64,000 nt of DNA. It comes from Amycolatopsis sp. DSM 110486 (GTDB taxonomy: Bacteria > Actinomycetota > Actinomycetes > Mycobacteriales > Pseudonocardiaceae). Below the pieces are notes generated by a model, which worked only from the letters and a program-made list of their open reading frames with translations, searched no databases and had not been told where the DNA came from. This document shows positions 22,402 through 30,648 of the stretch, one piece after another (the first letter of the stretch is position 1; each line of letters opens with the position of its first letter). A program made the translations under genes and the position numbers. The stretch covers positions 10,471,001 to 10,535,000 of the forward strand of contig NZ_CP080519.1 in the NCBI RefSeq assembly GCF_019468465.1, read 5' to 3'.

Positions 22402-22501
22402 CATCGCGGCCCGGCAGGTGTCGGAAACTGTCGGTGGCGGATGAGATGCTTCTCCGGTCAGCCCCTCACGGGGGTCGGAAACACGGAGCGGCAAGGGAAA
22501 C

Positions 22502-23857
22502 GTGGCCGAACAGGTGGCAGCGCGCTGGAGTCCCGAGCAAGTCGCCGGACTCGCGCCGGACCCGGCGTCGGCCAAGGCCGGGCGCGGGCTCGCGGTGCCG
22601 GCGAAGTGGTCGGGTGCGGGCGCTTCGGCGCGCGCTGTGTGGGGTTCGTGCAAGGGCAGTGGCGAGAAGCCGTACCGCACGGTGGTCGAGCTGGCGGGGC
22701 CGGCGTTCAAGTGCACGTGCCCGTCGCGGAAGTTCCCGTGCAAGCACGCGCTGGGGTTGCTGCTGCTGTGGTCGGCGGAGCAGGTGCCGTCTGCTGCCGA
22801 GGAACCCGATGTCGCCAGGTGGCTTGCCGAACGAGAGGCGCGGGCGTCGCGCGCGGAACGCAAACCGGACGCGCCGAAGGACCTGGAAGCCGCCGCCAAA
22901 CGGGCGCAGGAGCGGCTCGCGCGGGTCACCGCGGGCGCGGCGGAGCTACGTGGCTGGCTGACCGACCGTGTTGGTGCCGGCTTCGCGAGTTTCGAACGCA
23001 GTGCGTTCGAGGGCGGCGGTTTCGAAGGCGGCGGTGGCTTCGGAGGCGGTGCTGAGCAGCTGCGCGCGGTGGCCGCGCGGATGATCGACGCCCAGGCACC
23101 GGGCCTGGCCGGCGGCCTGCGGCGCGCGGCCGGGCTGGTCGGGCGCGGCCGCGACTGGCCGGGTGACCTGCTGGCCGAGCTGTCGCTGCTGTACGTGCTG
23201 GCGGGCGCTGCGCTTCGCCTGGACGAGCTGCCTTCGGCGCTAGCCGAAACCGTGCGCACGCGCCTGGGGTTCTCGGCGGGCACCGCGCAGGTGCTGGAGT
23301 CGGGCGAACGCCTCGCCGACCAGTGGCTCGTGACCGGCGCGGTCGACGACGAACAGGACAACCTCCGCACCCGCCGCACCTGGCTGCGCGGCCGCCATTC
23401 GGGGCGCGTGGCGCTGGTCCTGTCCTTCGCCCCGCCCGGGCGCCCGTTGGACAGCTCGCTGCCCCCGGGCTACGTCGTCCCCGGCGAGCTCGCCTTCCAC
23501 CCGGGCGCGCTGCCTTTGCGCGCGCTCGTCGCCGACCGCACCGAGGCCGTCCCGACCCCGGTCCCCCGCGGCGACACCGTCGCCGACGCCTTGGCGGCGT
23601 TCGCCGAAGCCCTCGCCGTGGACCCGTGGCTCGACCGCTGGCCCGTGCTCCTGTCCGACCTCACCCCCGCCCGCCACGACGGCGGCTGGGCCCTGTCCGA
23701 TGTGGACGGTGCCGCCCTGCCCCTGCTGCCGGGCATCGACCCGTGGCCCCTGCTGGCCCTCGCCGCGGAACACCCGGTGACCCTCGCGGCCGAACTGACC
23801 CCGGCCGGCCTGCGCCCCCTGACGTGCTGGCACCCGAACGGCGTGGTGCGCCTGTGA
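22502..23857 (+). CDS. SWIM-type zinc-finger protein
   Basis: 451 residues from GTG 22502 (AAGGGA upstream). The SWIM motif CxCxnCxH is in FKCTCPSRKFPCKHALGLLL, about residues 68-87; SWIM domains bind nucleic acid or protein. A charged helical stretch (about 105-150), a Gly-rich linker (FEGGGFEGGGGFGGG) and an unrecognised globular C-terminal half follow. It heads a five-gene block whose other members are DUF5691, MoxR ATPase, DUF5682 and VWA proteins. A SWIM gene (yehQ) accompanies the homologous set in E. coli as I recall. The repeat GTCGGAAAC occurs at 22420 and 22474 in its leader. Confidence 0.88.
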   Translation: MAEQVAARWSPEQVAGLAPDPASAKAGRGLAVPAKWSGAGASARAVWGSCKGSGEKPYRTVVELAGPAFKCTCPSRKFPCKHALGLLLLWSAEQVPSAAEEPDVARWLAEREARASRAERKPDAPKDLEAAAKRAQERLARVTAGAAELRGWLTDRVGAGFASFERSAFEGGGFEGGGGFGGGAEQLRAVAARMIDAQAPGLAGGLRRAAGLVGRGRDWPGDLLAELSLLYVLAGAALRLDELPSALAETVRTRLGFSAGTAQVLESGERLADQWLVTGAVDDEQDNLRTRRTWLRGRHSGRVALVLSFAPPGRPLDSSLPPGYVVPGELAFHPGALPLRALVADRTEAVPTPVPRGDTVADALAAFAEALAVDPWLDRWPVLLSDLTPARHDGGWALSDVDGAALPLLPGIDPWPLLALAAEHPVTLAAELTPAGLRPLTCWHPNGVVRL

Positions 23858-24026
23858 CTACGACACTGTGGGAGAGACCGAAAACCTTGGCACCGCAAGC
23901 ACATCAGCCCGCGCCACGACGGCATCCTCGCCGCCCCGCTGTGCCGGCGGCGCGGCCTTCGCACCACGCGAACCCCGCCGCGCCAAGGCTTCGCCCGAAG
24001 GCCCCGACCGGCGGGCTGCTGCCGAT

Positions 24027-24360
24027 GCGCCCGACCAGCCGGCCCAGGCCGGCAGCACACCTCGCAACCACGTGCCCGCCCGAGGCCGGGAGCCGTCCGG
24101 CAGGCACGGCCGGGCAGCAATTGCCGGCGCGCCCGACCAATCAGCCCAGGCCAGCAGCGCACCTCGCAGCCACGTACTCGACCGAGGCCGGGAGCCGTCC
24201 AGCAGGCGCCGCCGGGCAACAATTCCCGGCGCGCCCGACCAACCGGCCCAGGCCAGCAGCACACCCCACACAACGCAGGCCGGCAATGTTCCTCGCAAAC
24301 ACCTGCCCGACCGAGCCCAGGAACCGTCCGGCAAGCGCGGCCCGACAACGATTCCCGGCC
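24027..24360 (+). repeat. 102-bp tandem repeats between SWIM and DUF5691 genes
   Basis: Three consecutive units begin at 24027, 24129 and 24231 with GCGCCCGACCA; the first two are exactly 102 bp and the third 129 bp (27-bp insertion); a degenerate start of a fourth follows at 24360. All lengths are multiples of 3. The frame shared with DUF5691 is open throughout, with a 34-residue unit of type APDQPAQAxSTPRxHVxxRG, Pro/Arg/Ala-rich; two other frames are open too. The whole gap 23858-24533 holds nothing else. Whether it is translated as an N-terminal extension of DUF5691 is undecided. Confidence 0.8.
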
Positions 24361-24533
24361 CGCCCAGTCCGGCCAACCCGGCCGGCCACCGGCTCGGGAA
24401 CGCACCTCCCGCAGCCGCACCCGCGCTCCGCAGCGGCGACCGGCGTTTCCTCAGCGCCCACCGTCGCAGCGGGGCGGGGTGCGGGTCGTCTGCCGTTGTG
24501 TGCCGGCGGAAAAACCGAGGCGGTGGTGGGCCG

Positions 24534-25976
24534 GTGAAGGCGTGGGAAGACCTCGTCGGCACGGCGCTGCTGGGCACGCGCCGCCGGAGTCTCGACGTGA
24601 GCGGGCTGCCGGCCGAGGTGCGGGAGGTCGCGGGCAAGGCCGAAGATCAGGCCGACGCCGTCCTCGCCGCCGCGGCGTTGCTCACCAACTACCGCCGTGC
24701 GGGCCGCCTTCCCGTGGCCGACGCGCGCCGCGAAGAGCCGGCCAAGCCCGACGGGCGGCGGTTCGTCTCGCCGCTCGCGCGGGAGCGGCTGGCGCGGTTG
24801 CTGCACGCGAACCGGCCCGAGCTGCTCGAGGAGTGGCTGCACACGGCGGCCGGGCGGGGGTTGCGGGTGGGGCCGGAGCTGCTGCCGGCGCTGGCGGACG
24901 CGGCGCGGGCGCGGGTGTCGTTGCGGGCGCCGCTCGCGGAGGTGGCGGGGCCCGTCGGGGCGTGGCTGGGCGAGCGCAACACCGACTGGGCGTTCCTGGT
25001 CGCCGAGGTCGAGGACGACAGCGACGACGCCTGGCAGTTCGGCACTCCCGCGCGACGCCAGGCGTGGTTCGAACGGGCGCTCACGCAGGATCCCGCGGCG
25101 GCGCGCGCGGCGCTCACGACAACGTGGCGCACCGAGCCGGCCGACCTGCGCTCGGTGTTCCTCACGGTGCTGGGCCGCCACCTCACCCAGGACGACGAGC
25201 CGTTTCTCGACGCGGCCCTCTCCGACCGCGCGGCGGCGGTGCGCGACACGGCCGTACGGCTGCTCGGCGGGCTGCCCGACACCGGGCTCGGCAAACGGAT
25301 GGCGGCGCGGCTGCAGGAGTGCGTCACCGTGCGCAGCCGGTCGCTGCGGGCCGACGTCCTGCAGGTCACGCTGCCGAGGCCGGACGACTCGCTGGTACGC
25401 GACGGCGTCCGCGTGCCCCACGGGCCCGGGCAGGACACTGCGCGGCTGAGGGCGATCATCGCCGCCACTCCCCTGGCGTTCTGGGCGGAGTTCGGCACGC
25501 CGGGTGACCTCGTGGGCATGCTCGTGGAGGGCTGCCCGCTCGCCGTGGTGCGCGAAAGCTGGGCCACGGCCGCGATCCGGCAGCTTGACGAAGCATGGGC
25601 GCAGGCGCTCGTCGAAGCCGAACCCGGCGGCCGGGCCACGGCGGCGCTCGTCGGCGTACTCGCGCCGGAGAAGCAGGCCGCGACCATAGCGAAGCTGGCG
25701 CGCGGCCTGAAGGTCGAAGCGCTCACGCGGCTGATCCTCGACCTGCCGCAACCGTGGCCCGAGGAGCTGGGCCGGGTGCTGCTCGACTGGGTCGCCGCGC
25801 AGCAGGACCACCGGCTCGTGGCCCACGCCGCCGCCCTCATCGCCAAGGCCGTGCCGCCGGCTTGCCTGCGCCACCGCCTGTCCCTGATCCTCCAGCCCGG
25901 CGAAGCCGCCCCGTGGCAGCGCGCTGTGGCCGAAACCCTGACTTTCCGCCGCGAAATGCACGAGGAGCTCTCATGA
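24534..25976 (+). CDS. DUF5691-family protein
   Basis: 480 residues from GTG 24534, where family-like sequence begins (VKAWEDLVGTALLGTRRRSL). The same frame is open back to 23868 through the 102-bp repeats, so a 702-aa form is conceivable. The sequence is mostly alpha-helical and HEAT-like: LSDRAAAVRDTAVRLLGGLP, AARAALTTTWRTEPADLRSV and similar units suggest a solenoid scaffold. No catalytic motif is visible. It ends with ATGA overlap into the MoxR gene (25973). Known only from company with SWIM, MoxR, DUF5682 and VWA genes; probably an adaptor or substrate platform. Confidence 0.8.
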   Translation: MKAWEDLVGTALLGTRRRSLDVSGLPAEVREVAGKAEDQADAVLAAAALLTNYRRAGRLPVADARREEPAKPDGRRFVSPLARERLARLLHANRPELLEEWLHTAAGRGLRVGPELLPALADAARARVSLRAPLAEVAGPVGAWLGERNTDWAFLVAEVEDDSDDAWQFGTPARRQAWFERALTQDPAAARAALTTTWRTEPADLRSVFLTVLGRHLTQDDEPFLDAALSDRAAAVRDTAVRLLGGLPDTGLGKRMAARLQECVTVRSRSLRADVLQVTLPRPDDSLVRDGVRVPHGPGQDTARLRAIIAATPLAFWAEFGTPGDLVGMLVEGCPLAVVRESWATAAIRQLDEAWAQALVEAEPGGRATAALVGVLAPEKQAATIAKLARGLKVEALTRLILDLPQPWPEELGRVLLDWVAAQQDHRLVAHAAALIAKAVPPACLRHRLSLILQPGEAAPWQRAVAETLTFRREMHEELS

Positions 25977-27058
25977 CGTCCGCAGTCCTCCGGCCCCACG
26001 CCGAGCAGGAGTACGCCGGTGAACTGGCCGCGCTGGCCGCGGCCGACGACCGCGCGAAGCCGCCGTCGTGGCTGCTCTCGCCGTGGGCCGTGGTCACATA
26101 CCTGCTGGGCGGCACCCTGCCCGACGGCACCGAGATCAGCCCGAAGTACGTCGGCCCGCGCCGTCTGATCGAGGTCGCCGTCGCCACGCTCGCCACCGAC
26201 CGCGCGTTGCTGCTGCTCGGCGTGCCGGGCACCGCCAAGACCTGGGTGTCGGAGCACCTCGCCGCCGCCGTCAGCGGCGACTCCACGCTGCTCGTGCAGG
26301 GCACGGCGGGCACAGCCGAAGAGCAGATCCGCTACGGCTGGAACTACGCGCGCCTGATCGCCGAGGGCCCGAGCGAGCACGCGCTCGTGGAGAGCCCCAT
26401 CCTGCGCGCGATGCGCGACGGCAAGGTGGCCCGCCTCGAGGAGCTCACCCGCATCCCGGCCGACGTGCAGGACTCGCTGATCACCGTCCTGTCGGAGAAA
26501 ACCCTGCCCGTGCCCGAACTCGGCACCGAAGTGCAGGCACGCCCCGGCTTCACGCTCGTCGCGACCGCGAACAACCGCGACAAGGGCGTGAACGAGCTCT
26601 CGAGCGCGTTGCGCCGCCGGTTCAACACGGTGGTGCTGCCGCTGCCCGACACCGCCGAAGCCGAGGTGGAGATCGTCAGCCGCCGGGTCGCGCAGCTGGG
26701 CGCCTCGCTCGCGCTGCCGGCCGAAGCCGCCGAGCTGACCGAGATCCGCCGTGTCGTGACGGTGTTCCGTGAGCTGCGCGCCGGCCGCACCGAAGACGGG
26801 CGCACCGCGGTCAAGACCCCGTCGGGCACGCTGTCGACGGCCGAGGCGATCAGCGTGCTCACCGGCGGGCTCGCGCTCGCCGCGCACTTCGGCGACGGCG
26901 TGCTGCGGGCGCAGGACGTCGCGGCCGGCATTCACGGCGCCGTGGTGAAGGACCCGGTCGCCGACCGCGCGATCTGGATCGAGTACCTCGAGACCGTGGT
27001 CCGCGAACGCGACGGCTGGGGCGACTTCTACCGCGCGGGGCAGGAGATCAGCGGATGA
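25973..27058 (+). CDS. MoxR-family AAA+ ATPase
   Basis: 361 residues. Walker A is GVPGTAKTW (about residues 82-90). A Walker-B-like strand precedes LARLEELTRIPADVQDSL, sensor 1 is LVATANNRDKG, and the arginine finger region is ELSSALRRRFNTVVLPLP. MoxR ATPases act as chaperones that load metals or remodel complexes, nearly always with a VWA protein, present here two genes downstream. Stop-start overlaps with both neighbours (ATGA at 25973 and 27055) imply fixed stoichiometry. The closest named relative is E. coli YehL. Confidence 0.9.
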   Translation: MTSAVLRPHAEQEYAGELAALAAADDRAKPPSWLLSPWAVVTYLLGGTLPDGTEISPKYVGPRRLIEVAVATLATDRALLLLGVPGTAKTWVSEHLAAAVSGDSTLLVQGTAGTAEEQIRYGWNYARLIAEGPSEHALVESPILRAMRDGKVARLEELTRIPADVQDSLITVLSEKTLPVPELGTEVQARPGFTLVATANNRDKGVNELSSALRRRFNTVVLPLPDTAEAEVEIVSRRVAQLGASLALPAEAAELTEIRRVVTVFRELRAGRTEDGRTAVKTPSGTLSTAEAISVLTGGLALAAHFGDGVLRAQDVAAGIHGAVVKDPVADRAIWIEYLETVVRERDGWGDFYRAGQEISG

Positions 27059-29235
27059 CCACGCACCTGCTCGGGATCCGGCACCACGGGCCGGGTTCGG
27101 CTCGGGCGGTGGCCGCGAGGCTCGCCGAGCTGGAGCCCGACGTGGTGCTCATCGAGGGCCCGCCCGAAGCCGACCAACTCGTGGACCTGGCGGCCGACGA
27201 GGACATGCGGCCGCCCGTCGCGTTGCTCGCGTACGCGGCCGACGACGTGTCGCGCGCGGCGTTCTGGCCGTTCGCGGTGTTCAGCCCCGAATGGCAGGCG
27301 CTGCGCTACGCCGCGGAAGCCGGGGTGCCGGTGCGGTTCTGCGACCTGCCGGCCGCGCACCAGTTCGCGCTCGGCGACGAGGACCGCGTGCCACGCACCG
27401 ACCCGCTCGCCGAGCTGGCGGCCGCAGGCGGGTACGACGACCCCGAGCGGTGGTGGGACGACGTCGTGGAGTCGCGCCGCGGCGGGGAGTCGCCGTTCGA
27501 GGTGATCGCGGAGGCGATGACCGCGCTGCGGGAGGACGAACGCCCTGCGGACCTCCACGAACAGCGCCGCGAGGCGTACATGCGCGGCGTGCTGCGCAAG
27601 ACGCGCAAGGAAGGCTTCGAGCGCATCGCCGTGGTGTGCGGCGCGTGGCACGTGCCGGCGCTGGCCGATCCGCTGCCGCCGGCGAGCCACGACCAGACCG
27701 TCCTCAAAGGACTGCCGAAGCGCAAGGTCGTGTGCACGTGGGTGCCGTGGACCCACGGCCGGCTCGCCACGGCCAGCGGCTACGGCGCGGGCGTGCACTC
27801 GCCCGGCTGGTACCACCACCTGTTCACCACGGCCGACGACGTCACCGCCCGCTGGCTCACCGCCGTGGCCGGGGTGCTGCGCGAGGAGGACCTGCCGGTC
27901 TCGACGGCGCACGTGATCGAGGCGGTGCGGCTGGCCGAAACGCTGGCGGTGCTGCGCGGCCGGTCCTCGGCGGGGCTGGCGGAAGTCGACGCCGCCACGC
28001 GCTCGGTGCTGTGCTCGGGCGACGACGTGCAGGCGGACCTCGTCACGCGCAAGCTCGTGGTCGGCGAACGCCTCGGCGAAGTCCCCGAAAGCGTGCCGCA
28101 GGCTCCGCTGGCGGCCGACCTGATCGCGACCGCGCGCCGGCTGCGGCTCAAACGCGAGCCGACCGCGCGCGAGCTGGATCTCGACCTGCGCACGCCCGGC
28201 GGCCTCGACCGCTCGCGGCTGCTCCACCGGTTGAGGCTGCTCGACATCCCTTGGGGCAGCCCGGAAATCTCGGCGACGCGCAGCAAGGGCACCTTCCGCG
28301 AGACGTGGACGCTGTGCTGGGAGCCGGGCTTCGAGGTCGACCTGGTCGCGGCCGCCGTGCACGGCACCACCGTCGCCTCGGCGGCGTCCGCCCGCGTGCG
28401 CGAGGCCATGGGCGGCAAGCCGCCGCTCGCCGACATCACCACGGCCGTCGAGGGCTGCCTGCTCGGCGGTCTCGGCGACGCGCTGCCGGAGGTGCTCACC
28501 GCACTCGACGTCCGCGCGGCGGCCGACACCGACGTCGCCGACCTCATGACCTCGCTGCCTCCGCTGGCCCGGTCCACCCGCTACGGCGATGTGCGTGGAA
28601 CCGACACCGCGCAGCTGCGGGAGGTCGCGGACCGCCTGCTCACCCGCGTGTGCGCCGGGCTGCCGCCGGCCGTCCATGGCATCGACGACGACGCGGCCCG
28701 GAAGTTCTGCGACCTGGTCGACAACGTCCACGAAGCCACCACTCTCCTGGGCGACGCGGCGCGCGAACGCTGGCTCACCGCGCTGCGCAAGCTCGCCGGC
28801 CGAGACTCCCTGCCGCCGCTGCTGGCCGGCCGCATCGTGCGGCTGCTGCACGACGCCGACCTGTTCGACAGCGCGGAGGTCGAGCTGCGCCTCGGCCGCG
28901 CGCTCACCCCGGGTGTCGAGCCGGCCGCGGGTGCGGCCTACGTCGAGGGCTTCTTCGCCGGCGGCGCGCTCCTGCTGGTCCACGACGAGCGCATGCTGCG
29001 GGTCGTCGACACCTGGCTGGGCACCATCCCGTCCGACGTGTTCACCGAGGTGCTTCCCTTGCTGCGCCGCACTTTCGGCGCCTTCGCGGGACCGGAGAAA
29101 CGCGCCATCGGCCAACGCGCCGCCACCCTCTCCGGCGGCGCCCCCGCGGCTCGCCTCGCCGCCGACGAGCTGGACGAGATCCGCGCCCGCAGTGCCCTGC
29201 CCGTGCTCGCGACCCTTCTCGGAGCAGCGTCATGA
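27055..29235 (+). CDS. DUF5682-family protein
   Basis: 726 residues, full length for the family. The start MTTHLLGIRHHGPGSARAV carries the conserved IRHHGPG motif and is followed by VVLIEGPPEADQLV. A later region, ERIAVVCGAWHVPALADPLP, with Cys-Gly-Ala-Trp-His, recalls the TraB/PrgY (ChaN/EreA-like) fold, in which paired His/Glu residues bind a metal. The remaining ~450 residues are helical. Coupled by ATGA to MoxR upstream and VWA downstream (29232). Family function unknown; by motif it may be the enzyme of the set. E. coli YehM is of this family. Confidence 0.85.
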   Translation: MTTHLLGIRHHGPGSARAVAARLAELEPDVVLIEGPPEADQLVDLAADEDMRPPVALLAYAADDVSRAAFWPFAVFSPEWQALRYAAEAGVPVRFCDLPAAHQFALGDEDRVPRTDPLAELAAAGGYDDPERWWDDVVESRRGGESPFEVIAEAMTALREDERPADLHEQRREAYMRGVLRKTRKEGFERIAVVCGAWHVPALADPLPPASHDQTVLKGLPKRKVVCTWVPWTHGRLATASGYGAGVHSPGWYHHLFTTADDVTARWLTAVAGVLREEDLPVSTAHVIEAVRLAETLAVLRGRSSAGLAEVDAATRSVLCSGDDVQADLVTRKLVVGERLGEVPESVPQAPLAADLIATARRLRLKREPTARELDLDLRTPGGLDRSRLLHRLRLLDIPWGSPEISATRSKGTFRETWTLCWEPGFEVDLVAAAVHGTTVASAASARVREAMGGKPPLADITTAVEGCLLGGLGDALPEVLTALDVRAAADTDVADLMTSLPPLARSTRYGDVRGTDTAQLREVADRLLTRVCAGLPPAVHGIDDDAARKFCDLVDNVHEATTLLGDAARERWLTALRKLAGRDSLPPLLAGRIVRLLHDADLFDSAEVELRLGRALTPGVEPAAGAAYVEGFFAGGALLLVHDERMLRVVDTWLGTIPSDVFTEVLPLLRRTFGAFAGPEKRAIGQRAATLSGGAPAARLAADELDEIRARSALPVLATLLGAAS

Positions 29236-30401
29236 CCACCCCGGACCCCGATCGTCTGCGCCGCTGGCGCCTCGTGCTCGGCGGCGGCGAGGACGGCACC
29301 GGCCGCTCACTGTCCGAAGAGGACAGCGGCCTCGACGCCGTTCTCGCGGCCCTCTACGACCGGCGCGACGAGCCCGTCCGCTCGGGCGACCGCCGCGGCG
29401 CGACCCTCAACTCCTCGGCGCCGCGCGTCGCCCGCTGGCTCGGCGACATCCGGCGGTACTTCCCGGGTTCGGTCGTGCAGGTGATGCAGCGCGACGCCGT
29501 CGACCGGCTCGGCCTCACCCGCATGCTGATGGAGCCGGAGCTGCTGAGCGCGGTCGAGCCCGACGTGCACCTGGTCGGCACACTGCTGTCGCTCAACGGC
29601 GTGCTGCCCGAGGAGACGAAGGAGACGGCGCGCTCGGTCGTGCGCACCGTGGTGGCCCAACTCGAGGAGCGGCTGGCCGAACCCACGCGCGCGGCGATCC
29701 GGGGCGCGCTCGACCGCGCCGCCCGCACGCAGCGCCCGCGCGCCGCGGACATCGACTGGGCCCGCACCGTGCGCACGAACCTGAAGCACTACTCCCCCGA
29801 GCTGGAAACCATCGTGCCCGAGCGGCTGGTCGGCTTCGGCCGGCGCCAGCTCAGCGTGCAGCGCGAAGTGATCCTCGCAGTGGACCAGTCGGGGTCGATG
29901 GCGGAGTCGGTGGTGTACTCGGGCCTGTTCGGTGCCGTGCTGGCGTCGATGCGGGCGCTGAGCACGAAGTTCGTCGCCTTCGACACGGCCGTGGTGGACC
30001 TCACCGAGCACCTCGACGACCCCGTCGAGCTCCTCTTCGGCACCCAGCTCGGCGGCGGCACCGACATCAACCGCGCCATCACCTACTGCCAAGGCCTCGT
30101 CGAACGCCCCGAGCAGACGCTGCTGGTGCTCATCAGCGACCTCTACGAGGGCGGCGTGCGAGACGAGCTGCTGCGCCGCGTCGGCGAACTGGTCGGTTCG
30201 GGCGTGCAGGTCGTGACCCTGCTGGCACTGTCGGACTCCGGCGCGCCGTTCTACGACCACGAGAACGCCGCCGCGCTGGCCGAGCTCGGCGTGCCGGCCT
30301 TCGCGTGCACCCCGGACCTGTTCCCCGAGCTGATGGCCGCGGCGCTGCGCCGCGAGGACCTCGGCCGCTGGGTGAGCGCCGCCACCGCGACCGTGGATTG
30401 A
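29232..30401 (+). CDS. VWA-domain protein of a MoxR/DUF5682 set
   Basis: 389 residues. The N-terminal ~200 residues are helical (WLGDIRRYFPGSVVQVMQRD; HLVGTLLSLNGVLPEETKET). The von Willebrand A domain starts near residue 210: VILAVDQSGSMAES is the MIDAS DxSxS motif, TQLGGGTDINRAI supplies the Thr, and LLVLISDLYEGG the second Asp, so the metal site is complete. VWA proteins usually act as the partner recruited by a MoxR ATPase. Last gene of the coupled run. E. coli YehP is the counterpart in my recollection. Confidence 0.9.
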   Translation: MTTPDPDRLRRWRLVLGGGEDGTGRSLSEEDSGLDAVLAALYDRRDEPVRSGDRRGATLNSSAPRVARWLGDIRRYFPGSVVQVMQRDAVDRLGLTRMLMEPELLSAVEPDVHLVGTLLSLNGVLPEETKETARSVVRTVVAQLEERLAEPTRAAIRGALDRAARTQRPRAADIDWARTVRTNLKHYSPELETIVPERLVGFGRRQLSVQREVILAVDQSGSMAESVVYSGLFGAVLASMRALSTKFVAFDTAVVDLTEHLDDPVELLFGTQLGGGTDINRAITYCQGLVERPEQTLLVLISDLYEGGVRDELLRRVGELVGSGVQVVTLLALSDSGAPFYDHENAAALAELGVPAFACTPDLFPELMAAALRREDLGRWVSAATATVD

Positions 30402-30474: not shown

Positions 30475-30597
30475 ATGAAGGTTCGCGCGTCGGTCAGGTC
30501 GCTGGCTCGCCAGCAGGGGGCCCAGGTCATCCGCAGGCACGGCAAGATCCTCGTGATCAACCGCGACAACCCGCGGAACAAGGCTCGCCAGGGCTGA
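30475..30597 (+). CDS. rpmJ: 50S ribosomal protein L36, cysteine-free paralogue
   Basis: 40 residues: [40 protein letters not shown]. Conserved L36 landmarks (KVRxS, GKxxVIN, NPRxKxRQG) are all present, but the four zinc-ligand residues of the C+ form (CxxC...C...H) are absent. In actinobacteria, C- paralogues replace zinc-binding L36 under zinc starvation and are usually Zur-repressed. GAGG lies ~11 bases upstream. I see no clear Zur box in the 73-base leader. Too short for most gene callers but unambiguous. Confidence 0.92.
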
Positions 30598-30610: not shown

Positions 30611-30648
30611 GGGCGCCATCCACCTCAGGTGGGTGGCGCCCTTTTTTT
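30611..30648 (+). terminator. Strong terminator after rpmJ
   Basis: Left arm 30611-30625 (GGGCGCCATCCACCT) pairs with 30627-30641 (AGGTGGGTGGCGCCC) with one G-U pair, followed by seven T at 30642-30648. It separates rpmJ from the convergent monooxygenase ending at 30677. Confidence 0.92.

Follow-up and report, generated by a model that had tools for sequence, protein, structure and literature searches.

A block of five genes in Amycolatopsis sp. DSM 110486 was found to lie behind a PafBC/RecA-NDp-type promoter sequence, and this promoter sequence precedes the corresponding system in many actinobacteria. The block was analysed within a 64,000-nucleotide (nt) stretch of contig NZ_CP080519.1 (the window; the genome around it is 10.98 Mb) and encodes, in order, a SWIM zinc-finger protein, a DUF5691 protein, a MoxR-type AAA+ ATPase, a DUF5682 protein, and a VWA (von Willebrand factor A) protein. 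We consider it probable, at roughly 60%, that these genes specify a MoxR-VWA remodelling machine induced by DNA damage, in which the possibly TraB-like DUF5682 protein is partner or substrate and whose biochemistry we infer. What is new here is the apparent PafBC/RecA-NDp-type promoter of the SWIM gene of this system.

The five genes form one conserved system

All five open reading frames (ORFs) lie on the forward strand, and both the ORFs and the families given by the initial annotation were confirmed by Pfam matches. The SWIM gene (22502 to 23857; 451 amino acids [aa]; PF04434, E-value 1.6e-5; CxC-x6-CxH at residues 71-82) is separated by a forward-strand spacer with three copies of a repeat of about 100 nt (23858 to 24533) from the gene for DUF5691 (24534 to 25976; 480 aa from the probable start; PF18944, E-value 1.1e-117). 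These are followed by the genes for a MoxR-type AAA+ ATPase of the YehL kind (25973 to 27058; 361 aa; AAA_5/MoxR, E-value 2.6e-38), the DUF5682 protein (27055 to 29235; 726 aa; PF18934, E-value 1.7e-276), and a CoxE-type VWA protein with a full metal-ion-dependent adhesion site (MIDAS) (29232 to 30401; 389 aa; VWA_CoxE, E-value 1.1e-52). The ATGA overlaps said to join the last four genes were read at 25973-25976, 27055-27058, and 29232-29235. For DUF5691 the family assignment stood, while the start placed at 23868 did not: the long ORF from that position crosses the 676-nt repeat-bearing spacer, and the start is probably the GTG at 24534 because the Pfam match to this long ORF sets in at residue 228 and homologues are 440-510 aa in length (112 of 120 among the matches listed). 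The spacing between the SWIM and DUF5691 genes ranged across 30 Amycolatopsis loci from a 4-nt gene overlap, seen in 10 of them, up to 676 nt; because of this overlap, coupling of all five genes may be the ancestral state.

The co-occurrence of the five families, which had been put forward as a check on the block, was borne out by two samples. The first consisted of 94 loci from many phyla chosen by DUF5682 (the best 80 of 584, plus L016-L029). The MoxR, DUF5682, and VWA genes were all present in 86 of these loci, and in 84 they followed one another in this order on one strand. Two layouts accounted for most of the set: (i) layout A, SWIM-DUF5691-MoxR-DUF5682-VWA as in the window, was found at 16 loci, each with all five genes; and (ii) layout B, WGR/DUF4132-MoxR-DUF5682-VWA-YehQ as in the Escherichia coli yeh locus, was represented among 66 loci that join the three core genes to a YehQ-like SWIM gene, 61 of which had DUF4132 and 24 a WGR hit. 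One or more parts were missing from the remaining 12 loci, several of which lie on short contigs. Outside the actinobacteria, layout A was detected in Chitinophaga, another Bacteroidota genome, Sphingomonas, and a genome of the Thermus/Deinococcus group. The second sample covered 149 genomes of the phylum, of which 10 had DUF5682; DUF5691 scored above the cut-off in nine, every one of which was among the 10 and had the two families at the same loci, and one further genome had a DUF5691 match below the cut-off without DUF5682. The five genes form one conserved system.

The likeness to E. coli yehL/yehM/yehP/yehQ that had been noticed at the outset held in part. The products of yehL, yehM, and yehP are 41.7, 28.4, and 36.5% identical to the window MoxR, DUF5682, and VWA proteins, respectively, with the genes in the same order, and YehQ, like the window SWIM protein, carries a SWIM domain (PF04434); the two also share a local profile match outside the zinc finger (probability 88, 85 columns). 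The E. coli locus differs in having WGR and DUF4132 genes at its head and the SWIM gene at its end. The DUF5691 part of the parallel fails because the single E. coli control genome gave no match to this family, and the idea that YehQ is a SWIM-DUF5691 fusion was rejected, as no profile match of DUF5691 to YehQ was obtained. No function for yehLMPQ or for the YehL subfamily of MoxR was found in the open-access literature, among the matches listed and in the parts of those texts that were available.

A PafBC/RecA-NDp-type promoter sequence precedes the SWIM gene

The element at 22428 to 22450 on the forward strand, CTGTCGGTG-N8-GATGCT, is positioned 51 nt upstream of the SWIM start codon. Its upstream half matches 8 of 9 positions of the RecA-NDp consensus, which we take to be TTGTCRGTG-N8-TANNNT, and its -10 box, GATGCT, meets the loose form and not the strict form. 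According to the available parts of three papers, the RecA-NDp motif is used by PafBC to switch on DNA-damage genes (PMC6789036, PMC8223512, PMC11804915). The region near the SWIM start was scanned with the pattern TGTCRGTG-N8-NANNNT in loci of the genus (the best 30 of 51 SWIM matches) and of the family (the best 30 of 34), the window's own genome being in both, with 11,167 windows drawn at random from these loci as control. The pattern was present at 29/30 Amycolatopsis, 18/29 other Pseudonocardiaceae, and 6/12 other type A actinobacterial loci, compared with 7 of the 11,167 control windows. When spacings of 5-11 were tried, all 20 loci with a TANNNT box had a spacing of 8, and in the consensus of the 30 Amycolatopsis SWIM upstream regions the element was the longest conserved stretch.

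The element was also seen in other arrangements of the system. Three loci (L017-L019) have the SWIM pair transcribed away from the MoxR set, with the element at both promoters, in a looser form on the MoxR side. The strict form occurs at other type A loci and also at layout B loci; of 40 actinobacterial loci with layout B or one of its variants, 11 have it directly upstream of a head ORF that encodes DUF4132/WGR or MoxR, bears a VWA, or is long. The proposed damage-type regulation of the operon has strong support at the level of promoter sequence. A palindrome-like element of the type TATTCTAG..CTAGAATA was also noticed by eye just upstream of the SWIM promoter at eight loci (L105-L108, L110, L114, L116, and L118); situated between this promoter and a possible divergent gene, it is a possible operator.

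The promoter motif marks DNA repair genes in Streptomyces-like genomes

The window promoter resembles the mycobacterial PafBC/RecA-NDp regulon in its element and spacing and in that a close form is common to recA in Amycolatopsis. TGTCRG[TG][GC]-N8-TANNNT was found at 28 of 30 recA loci of this genus, with the exact TGTCRGTG in 10, and an SOS box was found in 29. Genes behind the exact motif, TTGTCAGTG-N8-TANNNT, were examined in three genomes of one genus (G023, G107, and G128), here termed Streptomyces-like because, among named matches, those closest to a G128 protein come from Streptomyces. These genomes hold 14, 26, and 37 sites, respectively (77 in total), and no site of the reversed pattern. 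Thirty loci were fetched from the 77 sites, and the products of 20 genes, each chosen automatically as the longest of the ORFs with a start no more than 260 nt away, were scanned; of the 10 unscanned genes, three are genes of the system itself (L256, L272, and L273) and the rest are mostly short or distant ORFs. Eight of the 20 proteins matched RecA, UvrA, UvrB, UvrD (two), UDG, RecD2-HHH, and DEAD-helicase families, and another two matched endonuclease families. The other 10 comprised two sigma factors, a transposase, an AAA_16 protein, a SUKH-4 protein, a transporter, and four proteins without a family. The 77 sites may represent a candidate LexA-independent damage regulon. At the DUF5682 loci of the same genomes the exact site was present in six of seven, and the seventh (L026) deviates in the first T only. 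Two of the Streptomyces-like loci are unusual in composition: at L029 (4577-9217), a paralogous locus, a 1161-aa VWA-ended protein precedes MoxR behind the damage-type motif, and at L026 (1573-12454) a 1962-aa ORF that matches no Pfam family significantly stands behind the damage-type motif ahead of MoxR and a DUF5682-VWA fusion.

A candidate pafBC locus is present in the window's genome: a stretch of about 7 kb contains pafA, two WYL genes, and tatC, interrupted by a single further ORF. Mycobacterium smegmatis has MoxR1, MoxR2, and a von Willebrand protein, which presumably belong to other MoxR systems. All three are lower in M. smegmatis without pafBC, according to the available part of a published study. 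No report tying the genes of the present system to PafBC was found among the open-access literature matches listed, as far as their available text goes.

Hints of damage regulation were also found in other lineages. The head of the E. coli yeh locus, yehF-yehH, is presumably the gene formerly called molR. In two papers, molR is listed as LexA-regulated. A LexA-like box starts 27 nt upstream of yehF and matches 13/20 positions, a score reached by 1.3% of 300 control windows. Depletion of DdrO, a damage repressor, raises the expression of a WGR gene and of a DUF4132 operon in Deinococcus radiodurans (PMC8533742). Strict LexA, DdrO, and SOS patterns gave nothing consistent at the automatically set heads of the 94 loci; several of these heads coincided with an end of the locus, and in E. 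coli a later gene had been set as head.

Several observations weigh against the damage-inducible reading. The -10 box in Amycolatopsis is NATGCT, the strict TANNNT being found in 0/30, and the pattern fails at 11/29 other Pseudonocardiaceae and 6/12 other type A actinobacterial loci, some of which have near variants. The strict motif is absent from 29 of the 40 actinobacterial layout B and variant loci, many of which have heads that reach or lie outside the limits of the retrieved DNA. None of seven proteobacterial layout B heads has a LexA-like box above 6/20 when scored with the E. coli consensus, although some of these lineages use other boxes. On this result LexA was rejected as a general regulator of layout B, E. 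coli itself reaching 13/20. In a study of S. venezuelae, a first search reportedly pointed to a lack of conservation of the M. smegmatis PafBC motif in that species. Finally, the window's own genome has 145 loose motif matches, and the genes behind the nine strict sites that were looked at, judged by eye, are not chiefly repair genes. These last two counts, together with a paper cited in part that has ClgR recognising the same P1 promoter, would fit a common housekeeping or ClgR-type promoter that is uninformative on DNA damage. We regard this explanation as improbable, since 10 of the 20 genes scanned behind the exact form in the Streptomyces-like genomes belong to repair and nuclease families and a close form recurs at recA in 28 of 30 Amycolatopsis loci. 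Because the same promoter type precedes recA and other repair genes, it is suggested that the system helps cells deal with damaged DNA.

Features of the encoded proteins

As the initial annotation had indicated, the VWA protein keeps a full MIDAS, with D218xSxS, T277, and D303 each conserved in 87 or 88 of 88 alignment rows, and Walker A and the sensor-1 Asn of the MoxR protein are conserved in an 88-row alignment, accompanied by an Arg finger. The MoxR Walker B is Glu-Glu in 88/88 rows, the usual Asp being replaced by Glu. Among Protein Data Bank (PDB) sequences, MoxR had seven matches at an E-value of 1e-5 or better, five midasins followed by two NorQ proteins; no solved relative of the VWA protein was found at an E-value of 0.1 or better.

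The DUF5682 protein, whose closest relatives among the matches listed are Amycolatopsis proteins of 98% identity, consists of an N-terminal alpha/beta domain (about residues 1-240) and a long, mostly helical C-terminal region (predicted model: predicted local distance difference test score [pLDDT] 89.4, predicted template-modelling score 0.83). Proteins of the TraB/TIKI/EreA/ChaN superfamily have two GX2H motifs and a conserved Glu. The N-terminal domain of DUF5682 has conserved H10, H11, E34, and H199, with H10, E34, G196, and H199 invariant in 77 rows and the first G of the motif not invariant. The TraB/EreA-type reading of this protein made earlier is plausible by these motifs and a weak fold match but is not proven. 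The window protein had no Pfam match to PF01963 or PF04187, a weak ChaN match (E-value 0.11) appeared in one of seven DUF5682 proteins scanned, and TraB identity by sequence was rejected after Pfam, PDB, and profile comparisons (the last with one TraB sequence) gave no match. The best 120 of 1391 hits to a profile of the domain all carry DUF5682, and one of these 120 bears the source name 'pheromone shutdown protein TraB'. With Foldseek alone, neither the DUF5682 nor the DUF5691 model had a PDB match at an E-value of 0.001 or better, and the VIA rows for the C-terminal part of DUF5682 were mostly helical repeat proteins of many kinds. That any activity of DUF5682 is read from motifs and a weak fold match counts against assigning it an enzymatic role in the proposed machine. 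The fusion of DUF5682 and VWA into one ORF in the Streptomyces-like paralogous locus L026 hints at direct contact between the two.

These protein features bear on a second explanation, in which MoxR and VWA together bring a metalloenzyme, either DUF5682 or one encoded elsewhere, to maturity by inserting a cofactor or metal, as do NorQ and CoxD/CoxE, with DNA damage as one of several inducing stresses. The midasin and NorQ matches of MoxR, the CoxE type of the VWA protein, and the conserved His and Glu of DUF5682, which fit a metal site, would all suit such a role. However, no oxidoreductase or other obvious metalloenzyme was detected in the mapped block, the mapping having covered named families, and the motif marks repair genes in the Streptomyces-like genomes; we hold this explanation to be possible but unlikely.

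The two remaining proteins could be binding and scaffold components. In the SWIM protein, the three Cys and the His of CxC-x6-CxH are kept in 17/17 alignment rows, and no solved relative better than an E-value of 0.027 was found. The DUF5691 model is mostly helical (pLDDT 92.3) with weak matches to HEAT/ARM-type solenoids, none at an E-value of 0.001 or better, and these point to a HEAT/ARM-like alpha-solenoid. Relationship of DUF5691 to DUF4132 or to the VWA protein was considered and rejected for want of a profile match. The families and the mostly helical DUF5691 model support the combination first proposed for the block, a chaperone ATPase, a VWA partner, an enzyme-like protein, a SWIM protein, and a helical scaffold in one system.

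The cysteine-free L36 ribosomal protein gene rpmJ (30475-30597) begins 73 nt past the VWA gene. Its product scored 62.1 bits against its best model, type B L36 (cut-off 70), and was above the cut-off of rpmJ_bact. A zinc-stress module, in which the SWIM zinc finger stands beside an L36 gene without Cys codons, could be read from this proximity, which is kept in 3/6 Amycolatopsis loci, and from the lack of a predicted terminator between the two genes, a terminator-like site lying at 30611-30641. This is highly improbable: the adjacency was not found in the other three loci nor in L017-L029.

Relationship to known MoxR-VWA systems

MoxR-VWA chaperone systems are the closest known kind. The available parts of the literature describe NorQ, CoxD-CoxE, RavA-ViaA, and midasin as such pairs (Kaur 2020, section 8; PMC3893208). 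Like them, the window has a MoxR-clade AAA+ protein with a MIDAS-bearing VWA partner, here of the CoxE type; unlike them, it has fixed partners (DUF5682, SWIM, and DUF5691), a Glu-Glu Walker B, and a DNA-damage-type promoter.

The block was also compared with the MoxR-vWA ternary conflict systems (Kaur et al. 2020, PMC7159879), with which, as far as the consulted portion of that paper describes them, it has MoxR, vWA, and further components in common. It differs from them in that none of their third components is among the Pfam matches of the five window proteins and in that a system of the window type is also found in E. coli. On a conflict reading, damage or phage signals would release the block to act in conflict or abortive infection; it would share the core idea of the ternary systems (section 8), and a weak score against bpMoxR points the same way. 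Against this reading, 0/5 proteins matched PADLOC-DB, and the bpMoxR score, 25.7 bits, is below the cut-off of 27. SWIM, YehL, and bpMoxR are unmentioned in the available portion of the Kaur 2020 main text. Ten neighbouring ORFs were scanned and no defence family was detected; five matched metabolic families (an epimerase, a glycosyltransferase, a flavin monooxygenase-like protein, a polysaccharide lyase, and an aldehyde dehydrogenase), and the other five, some of which are probably not genes, had no family. The conflict reading was rejected on the PADLOC and bpMoxR results and is decidedly improbable. Thus, of the stress or conflict machine proposed in the initial annotation, the stress part is supported by the DNA-damage-type promoter, whereas the conflict part is not supported by the PADLOC, bpMoxR, and neighbourhood results.

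A probable damage-inducible remodelling machine

In the DNA-damage-inducible remodelling machine that we favour, PafBC activated by single-stranded DNA would induce the operon once DNA is damaged. Like other MoxR-VWA pairs, the MoxR ring of YehL type and the VWA protein with its MIDAS would act as an ATP-driven chaperone pair, here on DUF5682, a direct partner or substrate and possibly a metal-dependent TraB-like hydrolase with a helical scaffold. Recruitment of the machine to damaged nucleic acid or nucleoprotein may fall to SWIM, or to WGR in layout B. DUF5691 would serve as an adaptor scaffold. By analogy, the system could be pictured as a bacterial counterpart of the SPRTN-p97 route. Such a counterpart, clearing DNA-protein crosslinks or stalled nucleoprotein complexes, would be damage-induced: the AAA+ ring with its VWA adaptor would pull proteins stuck on damaged DNA, the SWIM or WGR domains would locate the site, and cleavage of the protein would be the task of the TraB-like domain of DUF5682. 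We view this more specific proposal as quite improbable.

The sites in the Streptomyces-like genomes suggest a PafBC-type, LexA-independent damage regulon there, in contrast to what a first motif search published for S. venezuelae had suggested. The YehL branch of MoxR ATPases spans E. coli to Streptomyces and appears to represent a conserved yet unstudied machine, for which the promoter evidence makes damage induction, PafBC dependence, and mutant survival directly testable.

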